Origin: an uncultured Woeseiaceae bacterium
GTDB lineage: Bacteria > Pseudomonadota > Gammaproteobacteria > Steroidobacterales > Woeseiaceae
Assembly (NCBI GenBank): GCA_945787845.1
Contig: CALZJH010000006.1
Coordinates: 1-64,000, forward strand
Reading direction: 5' to 3'
DNA length: 64,000 bases
The notes below the pieces were generated by a model. It was not told the DNA's origin. It was given only the letters and a program-made list of their open reading frames with translations, and did not search any database. Both the position numbers and the translations under genes were made by a program. Shown here in pieces: positions 26,998 through 31,706 of the stretch; position 1 is the first letter of the stretch; each line of letters starts with the position of its first letter.

Positions 26998-27159
26998 CTA
27001 GGCGGAATCCAGGAACAGGATTACTGCCCACGCCGCGAACAGCAGCACCGTGGCCGCGAAGAGTCCACTCAGAACGATGACCAGTCTGCGTTGCCAGCGG
27101 GGTGCGTCCTGCTTCCTGTATTTCCTGTTGTCCAGTTTGCTATTCCGGAGGTGAGTCAA
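26998..27159 (-). CDS. Small single-pass membrane protein (53 aa, TTG start)
   Basis: A short - strand frame ends at TAG (27000-26998). It encodes a basic, hydrophilic head (NSKLDNRKYRKQDAPRWQRR) followed by one clear membrane helix (LVIVLSGLFAATVLLFAAWA, then VILFL). The distribution, positive residues before the helix, is that of a real inner-membrane protein and it lacks a shadow gene on the other strand. The start is uncertain: TTG 27159, 20 nt inside the end of the lipoprotein gene. There is no strong ribosome-binding site, so translation may be coupled. Confidence 0.4.
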   Translation of the reverse strand: MTHLRNSKLDNRKYRKQDAPRWQRRLVIVLSGLFAATVLLFAAWAVILFLDSA

Positions 27160-27829
27160 CTACCTGGAAGGTTTCCGGATCAATCCAGGGTCCTCCATCG
27201 GCTCGCTTAAAATCCAACCTGAGCTTCTGGCCAGTCTTTGAATCAAATAGCCCGTATTTGTAGCGCTTGGTGCATTCGTAATAACCGGGCTGATCTTTGC
27301 AAAGAAGCGCTTCAATCACGAATGCACCGTCGGAGTTTGTTCGGGCAGCAACGAGGTCTCGACCGCTTTGAAAGAGAAACGTGGAAATCGCGGGTTCAAA
27401 ATCGACATCCTCAGCCCCCTCTGCGGGGACGAGCGCCTTAACATACGTCGCCAGAACCATCGGGACGTGGAATAGCTTAACCCTGGTCCATCCTCTGATG
27501 TTGCTGGAAAAATCCTCCAGTCTCAGATCGGGTTGGCGATCGACTTCCCACCGTTCGAACGACTTGGCATAGTTTTCGTACTCAGACTCAGTGTCTTTCG
27601 GCGCAATCTCGCGATAGGCCGAAACGGTACCTACGACAATGACACCGGTGACCGGCGTACCTGATGCGCTCGAGGTCGTGTCGGATTCCGCATCAGCCAG
27701 CTGAGTATGATCCACGATCATTGTGCTGATGTACGGGTCCGACAACATGCCAACGCCCTCCCTGGTGACGCATCCGGAACTGACAATCGTTGCCAATATC
27801 AGAGTTAGAATACTGCGGTGTCGGACCAC
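27140..27829 (-). CDS. Lipoprotein of unknown function
   Basis: 229 residues. The signal peptide ends in lipobox SSGC (Cys20). The mature part includes GTPVTGVIVVGTVSAYREIAP, quoted in part, and a later block with cysteines (EALLCKDQPGYYECTKRYKY) that resembles a carboxypeptidase-regulatory-like beta fold ('TNSDGAFVIEALLC'). The start is GTG 27829 after AAGGA. It is the last sizeable gene of the leftward glycosylation cluster, 25 nt after the STT3-like gene. I do not recognise a family. Confidence 0.75.
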   Translation of the reverse strand: MVRHRSILTLILATIVSSGCVTREGVGMLSDPYISTMIVDHTQLADAESDTTSSASGTPVTGVIVVGTVSAYREIAPKDTESEYENYAKSFERWEVDRQPDLRLEDFSSNIRGWTRVKLFHVPMVLATYVKALVPAEGAEDVDFEPAISTFLFQSGRDLVAARTNSDGAFVIEALLCKDQPGYYECTKRYKYGLFDSKTGQKLRLDFKRADGGPWIDPETFQVVDSPPE

Positions 27830-27854: not shown

Positions 27855-29624
27855 CTAGTGAACGGCGAATGCTCGGGCGTACAGTAGCGGCTGCCCGTCT
27901 TTCTCGACCCAGACTTCCTGGATCGGTTCGAAACCTTCGGGCAGGCTCGAGCCATTCATGAGCGCCGAGACCAGCGGGAAGCCGTCGGCAATCCCGATCT
28001 GACCGTCACGCACGACGTAGAAGTCCCATGCCCGGATCAGCACGTACTTGATGTCGGTCGAGCTCGAGCGCAGCGTCTGTGGCGTCATGCGCATCATCTC
28101 GTCGAATTGTTCGACGCGACGCAGGTCGTCGGTCGTCAGCATGAAGTTGTTGCTGACCACGCTGCAGTCGGTATGGAACAGCAGGTAGTTGCCATCGTGC
28201 TTGTCCGCGAGGATAACGCCCGGGTCTTTGGCGCAGCGCTCGCCGAGTTCGAGGAATACAGGCCTTGCTCGCTCATAAATGGGAGCGGCGCCCAGCGCGT
28301 ACACATCGAACAGCTTGCCGCGCAGCGGCGGCTGATAGGCGACGAGAATTCCACCGAGCAAGGCGACGAATACCAGGCCGCGATGCCAGTCGTATTGCGC
28401 GGCAAGCCGCTGCACGACGAACACCGTACCGACGATGAGTGCAAACAGGCCAAAATAGTGGAAGCGGAACTGCATCAGCATGAAGCCGAGACCGAATACG
28501 CTTGTCACCGCAAAGAACAGTTCGCGAGGCTGGCTTTCCCGGGTGGCGCGCCAGAGGTACCAGACGAGCAATGGCGGAGCTAGCAGCAGCAGCCAGCTAT
28601 AGTGCGCGGCTGTCCACGAGACGCCGAATTGACCCATCAGCGTGAACGGGTCTGTCGCTTCGATCACGTTTTCAAGGAAGGAAAGGTCGCGAGAGACGAA
28701 CGCTGCACCGTGCAGCACCTGCCCAAGAATCGGCAACACGAGCAGCACGCAGATGGCGGCCAGTAACCCCAGGGATTTCTTGTCGAAGCGCTTCCGGCCG
28801 ATGAACACCAGCACGACGCTCGTGCAGGCTGCGACATACAGGTGGAAGCCGGAAAGCAGGCCGAACTGGAACATGCCCTGCCGGAATGGCGCAGACGGGA
28901 CGACGATAAGCAGGGTCGCGAGCATCAGTGAGACTGCGAGCGCGTGCAGGTTGAATCGTGAGAACTGCGAACCGCGCAGCCACAGGATGCCCGCGCAAAC
29001 CAGCACCGGGATTTGCAGGACGAACAGGCCGTTGTGGAAACCCGGTGCAAGTCCCAGCGCAATACCGAGGCCGATCGCCGCAACCCTGTCCTCAGTCTTT
29101 GCAAACCAGCGCAGGCCGAGCCAGGTTACGAGCAGGACGCACGTGAATTCCATGAAGTGGTGATCGACTTTGCCGATCATATGCATGAGCTGCACGAACG
29201 GTGCGATGGCGAACGCCAGCATCGCCAATGCGCTGTAACCGAGCTGCAATCCGGCCTGGCGCGTGGCCGCGAGGAACAGCGCCGCATTGACGGCAAGCCA
29301 CGCCACGGGCACGTACACCAGGAAGCCCATCGGGTCGGTCGAGGGGCGCAACCAGACGGCGAGCGCGGCCGCCTTGCCCATCAGCCAGTCATACGCCCAC
29401 GGCCAGGGAATCCAGATCCCCTCCGGCGCGTCAATGCGCGCGTCGAACTGGTAAAAGCCGGCCCCGACCGCCGTGTCGAGCATGCGGCGCGCATGATAGA
29501 AGGAGTCGTTGCCGGTCGGGATGTACTCGCCGTCAATATACGCGGCCTCGAAGACGAGAAGCGACAGGAACATACTGATCGCCGTCGCGCCGAGCCATAG
29601 CAGCACGCCGCCCCACCATTGCAT
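27855..29624 (-). CDS. STT3-like GT-C membrane glycosyltransferase lacking WWDYG
   Basis: 589 residues from ATG 29624, with about 11-12 membrane segments and a short C-terminal periplasmic domain. Two motifs match the STT3/PglB/AglB oligosaccharyltransferase family: NDSFYHARRM in the first external loop, and GKVDHHFMEF, like the DHH loop of STT3. The WWDYG signature, which reads the acceptor sequon, is replaced by DKHDGNYLLF followed by VSNNF. So it probably transfers a sugar from a polyprenyl carrier, but not necessarily to N-x-S/T. It follows the methyltransferase by 16 nt. A longer start at 29699 would overlap that gene and add a non-membrane head. Confidence 0.75.
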   Translation of the reverse strand: MQWWGGVLLWLGATAISMFLSLLVFEAAYIDGEYIPTGNDSFYHARRMLDTAVGAGFYQFDARIDAPEGIWIPWPWAYDWLMGKAAALAVWLRPSTDPMGFLVYVPVAWLAVNAALFLAATRQAGLQLGYSALAMLAFAIAPFVQLMHMIGKVDHHFMEFTCVLLVTWLGLRWFAKTEDRVAAIGLGIALGLAPGFHNGLFVLQIPVLVCAGILWLRGSQFSRFNLHALAVSLMLATLLIVVPSAPFRQGMFQFGLLSGFHLYVAACTSVVLVFIGRKRFDKKSLGLLAAICVLLVLPILGQVLHGAAFVSRDLSFLENVIEATDPFTLMGQFGVSWTAAHYSWLLLLAPPLLVWYLWRATRESQPRELFFAVTSVFGLGFMLMQFRFHYFGLFALIVGTVFVVQRLAAQYDWHRGLVFVALLGGILVAYQPPLRGKLFDVYALGAAPIYERARPVFLELGERCAKDPGVILADKHDGNYLLFHTDCSVVSNNFMLTTDDLRRVEQFDEMMRMTPQTLRSSSTDIKYVLIRAWDFYVVRDGQIGIADGFPLVSALMNGSSLPEGFEPIQEVWVEKDGQPLLYARAFAVH

Positions 29625-29640
29625 GCTGGTCTCGCCGGGC

Positions 29641-30354
29641 TTAGTCAACCGACCTCTCCGAATGTGTTCTCGCGGCCACGACAGCGAGGTTCTTGCCAAA
29701 GCTGCCGAGCGTCAGGATGTCGATCACGCGGCTCACGGGGAACACGACGGAATCGTAGAGCGCGACGCTGCCCGGGCTCACGCCGCCAGACTTGTCACCG
29801 ATGAGCTTGTAAACGAGTGTGGCGAGGAAACCGAGGCTATCAACGTAGCGGGCCGACATCACCTCGAAGCCCGCCGCTTCAAGCAGCTTCACGAGCGGCT
29901 TGCGCCGGTACCGACGAAAGTGGCCAACGTGAGTATCCATCTGGCTGTAAAGGACCTGGAACGCGGGGACATACACGAGCAGGCGACCGCCGGGCTTCAG
30001 GCATCGATACAGTTCTTTTATCGCCTGGCCGTCGTCCCGGATGTGCTCCAGCACGTTGAGCGTGTACGCGTAGTCAACAGAGCCTTCCTCGATGTCGGCC
30101 AGCGATGCCGTGACCCCGAGCCCGGACTGTGCAAGCTCATCGCGAAGCCCGTCGTCCGGCTCCATGCAGACAACGTTGAGACCGCTGGCCGCGACAGGCC
30201 GCGCAAACGTCCCCGCACCTGCACCATGGTCGAGTACGCGCTTGCCGGCCGCATTGCTGCGTATGAGGTTGACCAGGAAAGCGTTGTACCGGGTCGCCTG
30301 TTTCATGGCCTCAAGGTTGTCGCGACCGCTGTAGCTGTTGTCAGGTGCGTTCAT
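29641..30354 (-). CDS. Class I SAM-dependent methyltransferase
   Basis: 237 residues from ATG 30354. SAM-binding motif VLDHGAGAGTFARPV, then VVCMEPDD, LNVLEHIRDDGQAI (motif typical of UbiE/COQ5-like enzymes) and KPGGRLLVYVPAF. Towards the end FLATLVYKLIG and the segment near VSRVIDILTLG are amphipathic and could associate with membrane. The start overlaps the GtrA-like gene by 14 nt. Likely methylates a lipid- or polyprenyl-linked sugar, judging only from its neighbours. Confidence 0.85.
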   Translation of the reverse strand: MNAPDNSYSGRDNLEAMKQATRYNAFLVNLIRSNAAGKRVLDHGAGAGTFARPVAASGLNVVCMEPDDGLRDELAQSGLGVTASLADIEEGSVDYAYTLNVLEHIRDDGQAIKELYRCLKPGGRLLVYVPAFQVLYSQMDTHVGHFRRYRRKPLVKLLEAAGFEVMSARYVDSLGFLATLVYKLIGDKSGGVSPGSVALYDSVVFPVSRVIDILTLGSFGKNLAVVAARTHSERSVD

Positions 30355-30742
30355 AGTCTGCAAACACGAAGCGTCGTGACGCGCCGAAGTTGAAAAGCAG
30401 TGCAACGCCGGCGCCCAGCGCCAGCGGGATCACGGGAATCGCTTTGAGACCGGCGATGAGCTCGATCACGGCGACAAACACGAGCAGGTTGATCATCGCC
30501 CCGATCACCTGCACGACGACGTAGGACATGTATTCCCGGCCGCTCATCCGCACTGCCCGCCGGTCGAACACCCAGCGGCGGTTCAGGTACCAGGTCGTGG
30601 TGACCGCGGCCGGGAACGATATCGCGCGTGCCGCGTAATGGTGCATTTCGAAACCGGCCATAAGGGTCGTGAGAATTCCTGCATCAACCAGGAATCCGAT
30701 AGTGCCAACAACGGCAAATCCCGGCAGCAGCCGACTAATCAC
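30341..30742 (-). CDS. GtrA-family polyprenyl-phosphate-sugar flippase
   Basis: 133 residues with four membrane helices (PGFAVVGTIGFLVDAGIL; AISFPAAVTTTWYLNRRWVF; YVVVQVIGAMINLLVFVAV; IPLALGAGVALLFNFGASR). NRRWVF and the final FGASRRFVF are hallmark GtrA features. GtrA proteins are thought to flip polyprenyl-phosphate-linked sugars to the periplasm. The start is GTG 30742, overlapping the GT2 gene by 8 nt. Confidence 0.9.
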   Translation of the reverse strand: MISRLLPGFAVVGTIGFLVDAGILTTLMAGFEMHHYAARAISFPAAVTTTWYLNRRWVFDRRAVRMSGREYMSYVVVQVIGAMINLLVFVAVIELIAGLKAIPVIPLALGAGVALLFNFGASRRFVFADYERT

Positions 30743-31706
30743 ATTGGCCGCCGCGGTGCCGCGCGATGCTGTTGTAATGGAGGCGCTTCATTTCCTGGCG
30801 GCCGCGCGTCACGGTGTCGAGGATGAGGCCGCAGGCGAGACTCAGGAAGCCCAGCAGCATGAGACCGGTGGACAACACGGCGGTCGGCAGGCGCGGTACG
30901 AGGCCCGTCTCCAGGTAGGTAAGCGCCAGCGGCCACGCAAGGACGGTTGAAGCCACTGCGAGCACGGCGAAGATGGCGCCAAAGAACGGCAGCGGTCGTT
31001 CAGTTTTCGTGAGCAACAGGATCGTCTTGAGAATTCGCCAGCCATCACGGAACGTGTTGAGGTTGCTTTCGGAGCCTTCCGGTCTCGCGCTGTAAGGCGT
31101 TTCGATCTCGGCTATCGGCATGCGCAGCTCGAGAGCATGCACCGTTAGTTCCGTTTCGATCTCAAAGCCACCCGCAAGAGCAGGAAAGGACTTGACGAAG
31201 CGTCGCGAAAACACGCGGTAACCGGACAGGAGGTCGGAAATACGATTCCCGAAAATCGTGGCGACGATGCCGCTCAGGAGAGCATTGCCGAAACGGTGGC
31301 CCGGGCGATACGAGTCGTCTTCGGCCGAGGCACGCGCGCCGTTAACCATGTCGAGCATTTCAGCTTCCAGCTTCTGGATCAACTTGCTCGCGCTCGCGGC
31401 ATGGTACGTGGCGTCACCGTCGACGAGAACATAAATGTCGGCTTCGACGTCGGCGAACATGCGACGCACCACATTGCCCTTGCCGGGCAGCGCTTCCTTG
31501 CGAACGATTGCGCCAGCTTCGCGAGCGATCTTCGCGGTGTCGTCGTCAGAGTTGTTGTCGTAGACAAAGATGGTCGCGGTGGGAACCGCTGCTCGAAAGT
31601 CCTCTACTACCCGGGCAATGGCGGCTGCTTCGTTGCGGCAGGGAACGATAACGGCGATCTGAACGTCCTCATGCGGAACGAACGCCGCCTCTCCGGATGA
31701 CTCCAT
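30735..31706 (-). CDS. GT2 polyprenyl-phosphate glycosyltransferase with C-terminal membrane anchor
   Basis: 323 residues. The GT-A domain is like dolichyl/bactoprenyl-phosphate glycosyltransferases: IAVIVPCRNEAAAIARVVED at the start, VYDNNSDDDT, GKGNVVRRMF, VDGDATYHA (metal-binding DxD) and DLLSGYRVFSRRF. Two membrane helices follow (FAVLAVASTVLAWPLALTYL; LSTGLMLLGFLSLACGLIL), as in GtrB. It would load a sugar on undecaprenyl phosphate at the inner face. First gene of the leftward cluster GT2, GtrA, methyltransferase, STT3-like, each overlapping or within about 16 nt. Confidence 0.92.
   Translation of the reverse strand: MESSGEAAFVPHEDVQIAVIVPCRNEAAAIARVVEDFRAAVPTATIFVYDNNSDDDTAKIAREAGAIVRKEALPGKGNVVRRMFADVEADIYVLVDGDATYHAASASKLIQKLEAEMLDMVNGARASAEDDSYRPGHRFGNALLSGIVATIFGNRISDLLSGYRVFSRRFVKSFPALAGGFEIETELTVHALELRMPIAEIETPYSARPEGSESNLNTFRDGWRILKTILLLTKTERPLPFFGAIFAVLAVASTVLAWPLALTYLETGLVPRLPTAVLSTGLMLLGFLSLACGLILDTVTRGRQEMKRLHYNSIARHRGGQCD

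Follow-up and report, generated by a model that had tools for sequence, protein, structure and literature searches.

A co-inherited module with an STT3/AglB-fold glycosyltransferase lacking WWDYG in Woeseiaceae and Steroidobacteraceae, and its linkage to type IV pilin genes in relatives

STT3 enzymes are the textbook case of sequon-directed N-glycosylation, and the question raised by the locus described here is what an STT3-like protein without the sequon-reading motif WWDYG, encoded together with a sugar loader and a flippase, may transfer, and to which acceptor. The locus is situated in the window, i.e. the whole stretch of 64,000 nucleotides analysed, from an uncultured Woeseiaceae bacterium (GCA_945787845.1, contig CALZJH010000006.1). 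The initial annotation had proposed that a single sugar, possibly methylated, is added to a protein or envelope polymer by a route unlike N-glycosylation. The target can now be narrowed, as the transferase is repeatedly encoded at a type IV pilin locus in relatives.

Gene content of the module

The module as a whole occupies positions 27855-31706 on the minus strand and consists of overlapping genes for a GT2, a GtrA protein, a methyltransferase and a GT-C protein, the start of each downstream gene overlapping the stop of the preceding one; all four genes were confirmed at the positions and in the overlapping order first described. The first of them (30735..31706, minus strand) encodes an AglJ/DPMS-like polyprenyl-phosphate sugar synthase, which matches Pfam PF00535 (Glycos_transf_2, 9e-15) and has two TM helices by hydropathy, both of them C-terminal. 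Its nearest NCBIfam model is TIGR04182 (AglJ), matched over the full length at 1e-59 and with 202 bits, below the curated equivalog cut-off of 325 bits, and its orthologues in GT-C-positive genomes share 58-76% identity. The description of this protein as a GtrB-like loader holds for its role as an Und-P-sugar synthase, but among NCBIfam models the nearest is AglJ and not GtrB. It is followed, with an overlap of 8 nt, by the gene for a GtrA-family flippase (30341..30742, minus strand; PF04138, GtrA_DPMS_TM, 8e-23; four TM helices by hydropathy) and then, with an overlap of 14 nt with gtrA, by that for a class I SAM methyltransferase (29641..30354, minus strand, ATG at 30354; PF13489, Methyltransf_23, 1e-17). 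The latter is an optional component that is missing from about half of the loci, and for this reason the idea of a methylated sugar, although the gene is present here, is a weak one.

The last gene (27855..29648, minus strand) encodes the STT3/AglB-fold GT-C protein without WWDYG, of about 597 aa, from a TTG start at 29648 or an alternative ATG at 29624 (residues are numbered from a 596-aa translation). Beyond a gap of 25 nt lies a lipoprotein-like gene (27140..27829, minus strand) for which neither a Pfam match nor a homologue at other module loci was found; as it is not conserved with the module, its membership is doubtful. The layout of Gtr systems is a GT2, a GtrA and a variable third GT, and the Gtr-like three-part logic assigned to the locus, with an Und-P-sugar synthase, a GtrA flippase and a periplasmic GT-C, was upheld.

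Fold and active site of the GT-C protein

Profile searches place the GT-C protein only remotely. It has no Pfam match, and PF02516 (STT3) is absent from all 32 members of its family and from the window genome, while the nearest NCBIfam model, archaeal STT3 TIGR04154, is matched at 7e-18 with 64 bits against a curated cut-off of 450; a phmmer search of the single protein against the PDB returned chance matches alone. A single-sequence structure model was unusable (pLDDT 44), and an AlphaFold (AF2) model built on an alignment of 32 homologues was used instead (mean pLDDT 91.9, pTM 0.92). Among solved structures its best match is AglB of Archaeoglobus fulgidus (Z 30.0, 567 residues aligned, 14% identity), which spans the whole length of the model, followed by eukaryotic STT3 (Z 24-28), PglB (about 22) and DPY19 (21-22), and at lower scores by PMT (about 20), ArnT (about 15) and Emb (about 12). 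Because the fold scores are highest for AglB, STT3, PglB and DPY19, the protein groups with enzymes acting on polypeptides. Its assignment as an STT3-type GT-C is thereby borne out by an AglB-like fold; an ArnT/PMT or unrelated fold, which had been named in advance as the contrary outcome, did not appear. However, since WWDYG is missing and no curated profile is matched above its cut-off, the family is best classed within the STT3/AglB fold group as a divergent branch without a name, and not as an oligosaccharyltransferase.

It has been shown for A. fulgidus AglB (AfAglB) that Asp47, Asp161 and His163 are the metal ligands and the TIXE residue Glu360 belongs to the second shell, that the lipid donor carries a single phosphate, that TIXE pairs with the backbone of the acceptor peptide, and that WWDYG and DK/MI form the pocket for the sequon Ser/Thr (PMC8342417). 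Invariant among the 32 GT-C sequences are D47, which is the first DXD aspartate and usually stands within GND, DHH161-163, E329 and R394, with E329 being the glutamate of a TIXE-like xIxE motif in external loop 5 (kept in 32/32); D47, D161/H163 and E329 correspond to AfAglB Asp47, Asp161/His163 and Glu360. The family thus possesses two DXD-type metal motifs and a TIXE/SVSE-type glutamate, and the STT3 carrier and DHH motifs recognised at the outset (DSFYHARR and VDHHFMEF) are both found in the window's protein.

WWDYG, on the other hand, occurs in none of the 32 members: neither tryptophan position holds W, the aspartate varies, and the loss is genuine throughout the family. The corresponding register reads DKHDG in the window's protein (codons at approximately 28194..28208, minus strand, as derived from the 596-aa numbering) and YSDDG, AQDDG, YNDAG, SNNFG and similar in other members. 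This placement is based on the full-length match of the model to AglB. It also draws on matches, weak if taken alone, between the family profile and the C-terminal domains of the A. fulgidus AglB-type chains 3vu0 (E 0.07) and 3vgp (E 0.2), where LSWWDYGNWILY is aligned over LadeddGhyiry and NNF is common to both sides. DKHDGNYLLF had been read as the replacement of WWDYG, which is correct for the five residues DKHDG, whereas NYLLF is an ordinary continuation, as NWILY is in AglB. The segment after the register is newly conserved as GH..RYHTDCSVIANNF, with C471, G485, C494 and N500 as invariant residues. Given that WWDYG forms the sequon Ser/Thr pocket and is absent, classical N-x-S/T recognition is not expected of the GT-C protein.

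Distribution and linkage to type IV pilus genes

Profile scans of genome contigs retrieved relatives of the GT-C protein when an alignment was used as query, whereas a single-protein query retrieved none. Homologues are present in 16 of the 196 genomes of the order and in 2 of the 369 genomes of the class sample, and 30 loci were found in a named genome collection, mainly in Woeseiaceae and Steroidobacteraceae; isolates with the gene are Peristeroidobacter agariperforans, P. soli and Steroidobacter gossypii, and a search of viral contigs found no copy and hence no phage carriage. Within the genomes sampled, the family does not extend beyond Woeseiaceae/Steroidobacteraceae-type Gammaproteobacteria. 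The same gammaproteobacterial locus also turned up in metagenome bins named as Rhodospirillales, Nitrosomonas, Pirellulaceae and Klebsiella (loci L042, L049, L054 and L066), where the contigs were probably mis-binned.

The GT2/GtrA/GT-C module is real. In about 22 genomes GT2 lies within about 5.5 kb of GT-C, usually with GtrA, while the flanks differ; the genes thus stay together across genomes as had been anticipated, and the separation that would have spoken against a module did not occur. GT2 was detected in 7/10 GT-C-positive against 0/20 GT-C-negative genomes (Fisher p 6e-5, indicative since the genomes are related), being missing from 3/10 of the former, and in G007, G062 and G347 GT-C stands alone, with GT2 and GtrA on another contig. 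GT-C duplicates occur in several genomes, and at five loci (L058, L068, L027, L030, L031) two paralogues are arranged in tandem or divergently, hinting at more than one acceptor site.

In relatives, GT-C is repeatedly encoded beside pilA, an observation that is new in this analysis. Its neighbours there include PF00114 pilins, a PilB-type ATPase, PilC, the prepilin peptidase PilD and a PilR-type regulator, and in nine genomes pilA lies within 5 kb of GT-C, within the pilSRABCD locus (L029/L064, L052, L054, L055, L056, L058, L061, L067, L068). In four more genomes (L024/L043, L025/L044, L026/L045, L047) the module is inserted between lpxC and secA, in a part of the chromosome that also contains zapD-coaE-pilDCB, and in G121 and G133 pilins are found on the module's contig at a distance of 14-15 kb. 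The pil-linked copies belong to three separate tree branches, and by a rough estimate about 1% of random 10-kb placements would meet a pilin locus, which makes even three independent placements in some 15 lineages improbable as a chance outcome; no other gene class beside the module recurs as the pilin locus does. Nevertheless, pilA loci keep their place in the chromosome over long periods, and some of the recurrent linkage is accounted for by vertical inheritance. No pil genes lie near the window's copy, near those of its two closest relatives or at roughly half of all the loci, the unlinked copies adjoining unrelated housekeeping genes and others such as aspS, thrS, gatB, metH and CusA-type genes. 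An apparent lack of a pilin in G157 was an artefact of the contig end, pilB beginning at base 455 of the contig.

Further transferase-like genes accompany some of these loci. Steroidobacter loci also encode GT87, a GT87-family mannosyltransferase-like gene (L056:5612-6844, with relatives in L055 and L068) being situated between module and GT-C at Steroidobacteraceae pil loci, which suggests that the pilin sugar is longer or that there is a second one. Membrane proteins of 636-641 aa with a YDEYSHWG loop motif and no Pfam/NCBIfam match are encoded beside GT-C at L024:9891-11801, L025:10128-12041, L025:12126-14042, L026:9894-11819 and L054:4088-6004, and are possibly another uncharacterised GT-C family.

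In the window genome itself, contig C16 bears an intact pilS-R-A-A-B-C-D locus, and neither of the two tandem pilins encoded there contains N-x-S/T. Such sequons are present in some pilins of GT-C-positive genomes and are equally common in GT-C-negative ones, and no pilin sequence feature separating the two groups was found. A C-terminal pilin signature, GGNILSxNAKWLPAACR, appeared to mark GT-C-positive genomes in the first 20 genomes only, and was dropped when KWLPAACR and near variants were found in GT-C-negative genomes too. Since no pilin feature tracks the presence of GT-C, the assignment of pilin as acceptor is based on the gene neighbourhood in relatives. As a rule, Woeseiaceae carry a tandem pair of distinct major-pilin genes upstream of pilB (L078:9209-10448; most Woeseiaceae pilA loci, L112-L131 and L140-L157), and in the window genome a pilin C-terminal domain is apparently fused behind a multi-pass membrane protein (G000 contig C1:65554-65871, minus strand; L079:5552-6949).

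Proposed function, alternatives and known systems

Taken together, we consider it reasonably probable that the module carries out periplasmic protein monoglycosylation from a polyprenyl-phosphate-monosaccharide donor, with type IV pilin as the likeliest acceptor. GT2 would load one sugar onto undecaprenyl phosphate at the cytoplasmic face, GtrA would bring the loaded lipid across to the periplasmic face, and GT-C, with its metal site and TIXE-like glutamate retained, would pass the sugar to a secreted protein, at a segment in extended conformation; this protein is most likely the major type IV pilin; where a methyltransferase is encoded, it would probably methylate the sugar. Owing to the loss of the WWDYG Ser/Thr pocket the transferase would need no N-x-S/T sequon, and acceptor choice would have to depend on another conserved surface, [D/x]GH..RYHTDCSVIANNF. 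The residues that hold the Asn amide in oligosaccharyltransferases are retained, as would suit a sequon-free N-linkage; an O-linkage is equally possible. A more far-reaching version, to be held tentatively and as somewhat less than probable, is that a bacterial STT3/AglB branch gave up sequon recognition and specialised in transferring a monosaccharide from polyprenyl phosphate to type IV pilins, the modified positions being set by a new conserved groove and the bond possibly sequon-free N-linked.

The same chemistry could serve a non-pilin acceptor, as in general or other periplasmic protein glycosylation (e.g. of an outer-membrane or surface protein), with the pil linkage being lineage-specific. 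Many loci, including those of the window clade, are indeed found in the unrelated neighbourhoods listed above, and the duplication of GT-C in several genomes points to multiple acceptors or sites; yet the pilin locus alone recurs beside the module, in nine genomes and three branches, and this alternative appears unlikely. The gene set of GT2, GtrA and a variable third GT would also suit a system of the Gtr type that modifies an envelope polysaccharide, namely the O-antigen or core of LPS, the STT3-fold protein acting as GtrC. This is rendered improbable by a fold nearer to the polypeptide-acting STT3, AglB and DPY19 than to ArnT or Emb, by a TIXE-like glutamate in 32/32 members whose AglB equivalent contacts the acceptor peptide backbone (PMC8342417), and by recurrent neighbours that are pilus genes and not O-antigen genes, none of the latter having been noticed beside the module at the loci examined. 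It is very improbable that the protein is a true N-glycosylation oligosaccharyltransferase with a merely diverged sequon reader that still targets N-x-S/T: while an STT3 fold, a complete metal site and sequons in some pilins of GT-C-positive genomes would agree with such an enzyme, the sequon-contacting W, W and D are all lost or variable family-wide, the two pilA-locus pilins of the window genome lack N-x-S/T, and pilins of GT-C-negative genomes are equally rich in it.

Monoglycosylation of a periplasmic protein, most likely pilin, would mean that a family without WWDYG but with a full metal site, a monosaccharide loader and a flippase shows how the oligosaccharyltransferase scaffold can be redirected to other acceptors in bacteria, and the family is proposed as a source of an enzyme that attaches single sugars to proteins. 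Should the target be pilin, Steroidobacter and Woeseiaceae would possess an unrecognised route of pilin modification, and the sugars on their pilins would be expected to change phage adsorption as in Pseudomonas (PMC11841053); a partial literature search found no matching report of a WWDYG-less bacterial STT3 or of Steroidobacter pilin glycosylation.

Several known systems resemble parts of the module. The GT2 matches the haloarchaeal dolichyl-phosphate hexosyltransferase AglJ in full length, but is bacterial, paired with GtrA and scored under the AglJ cut-off. Three-component GtrA-GtrB-GtrC systems (reviewed in PMC11127046) likewise co-encode an Und-P-sugar synthase, a GtrA flippase and a variable periplasmic transferase; here, in contrast, the third protein has an STT3 fold, the GT2 is nearest to AglJ, and the linkage in relatives is to pilin genes and not to O-antigen or prophage genes. 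TfpW of Pseudomonas aeruginosa group IV pili is a periplasmic GT-C whose gene lies at the pilin locus and which transfers D-Araf from a lipid carrier to type IV pilin; it has been described as unrelated to the other pilin GT (PMC11841053). The module would work like TfpW in its probable target, and a position at the pilin locus is seen for the GT-C in nine related genomes, not for the window copy; here, by contrast, GT2 and GtrA belong to the module and the GT-C fold is AglB-like. With AglB/STT3/PglB (GT66) the family has in common the whole fold, the first DXD (GND), the DHH, the TIXE-like glutamate and a conserved arginine, and with the short AfAglB forms the NNF after the WWDYG register; unlike them, it has neither WWDYG nor a PF02516 match, its C-terminal domain is shorter, and its module encodes a donor loader and GtrA with no genes for sugar-chain assembly. 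Finally, the tryptophan C-mannosyltransferase DPY19 combines an STT3-like fold with a Dol-P-monosaccharide donor, a sequon of its own and metal-independent catalysis (PMC10154233). It thus offers a parallel (Z about 22) for an enzyme of STT3 fold that transfers a monosaccharide and follows other acceptor rules, as the GT-C protein is presumed to do, although the latter keeps invariant metal-site residues and DPY19 is far more distant from it than AglB; a transferase dedicated to pilins would constitute, beside DPY19, a second STT3-fold route to single-sugar protein glycosylation.
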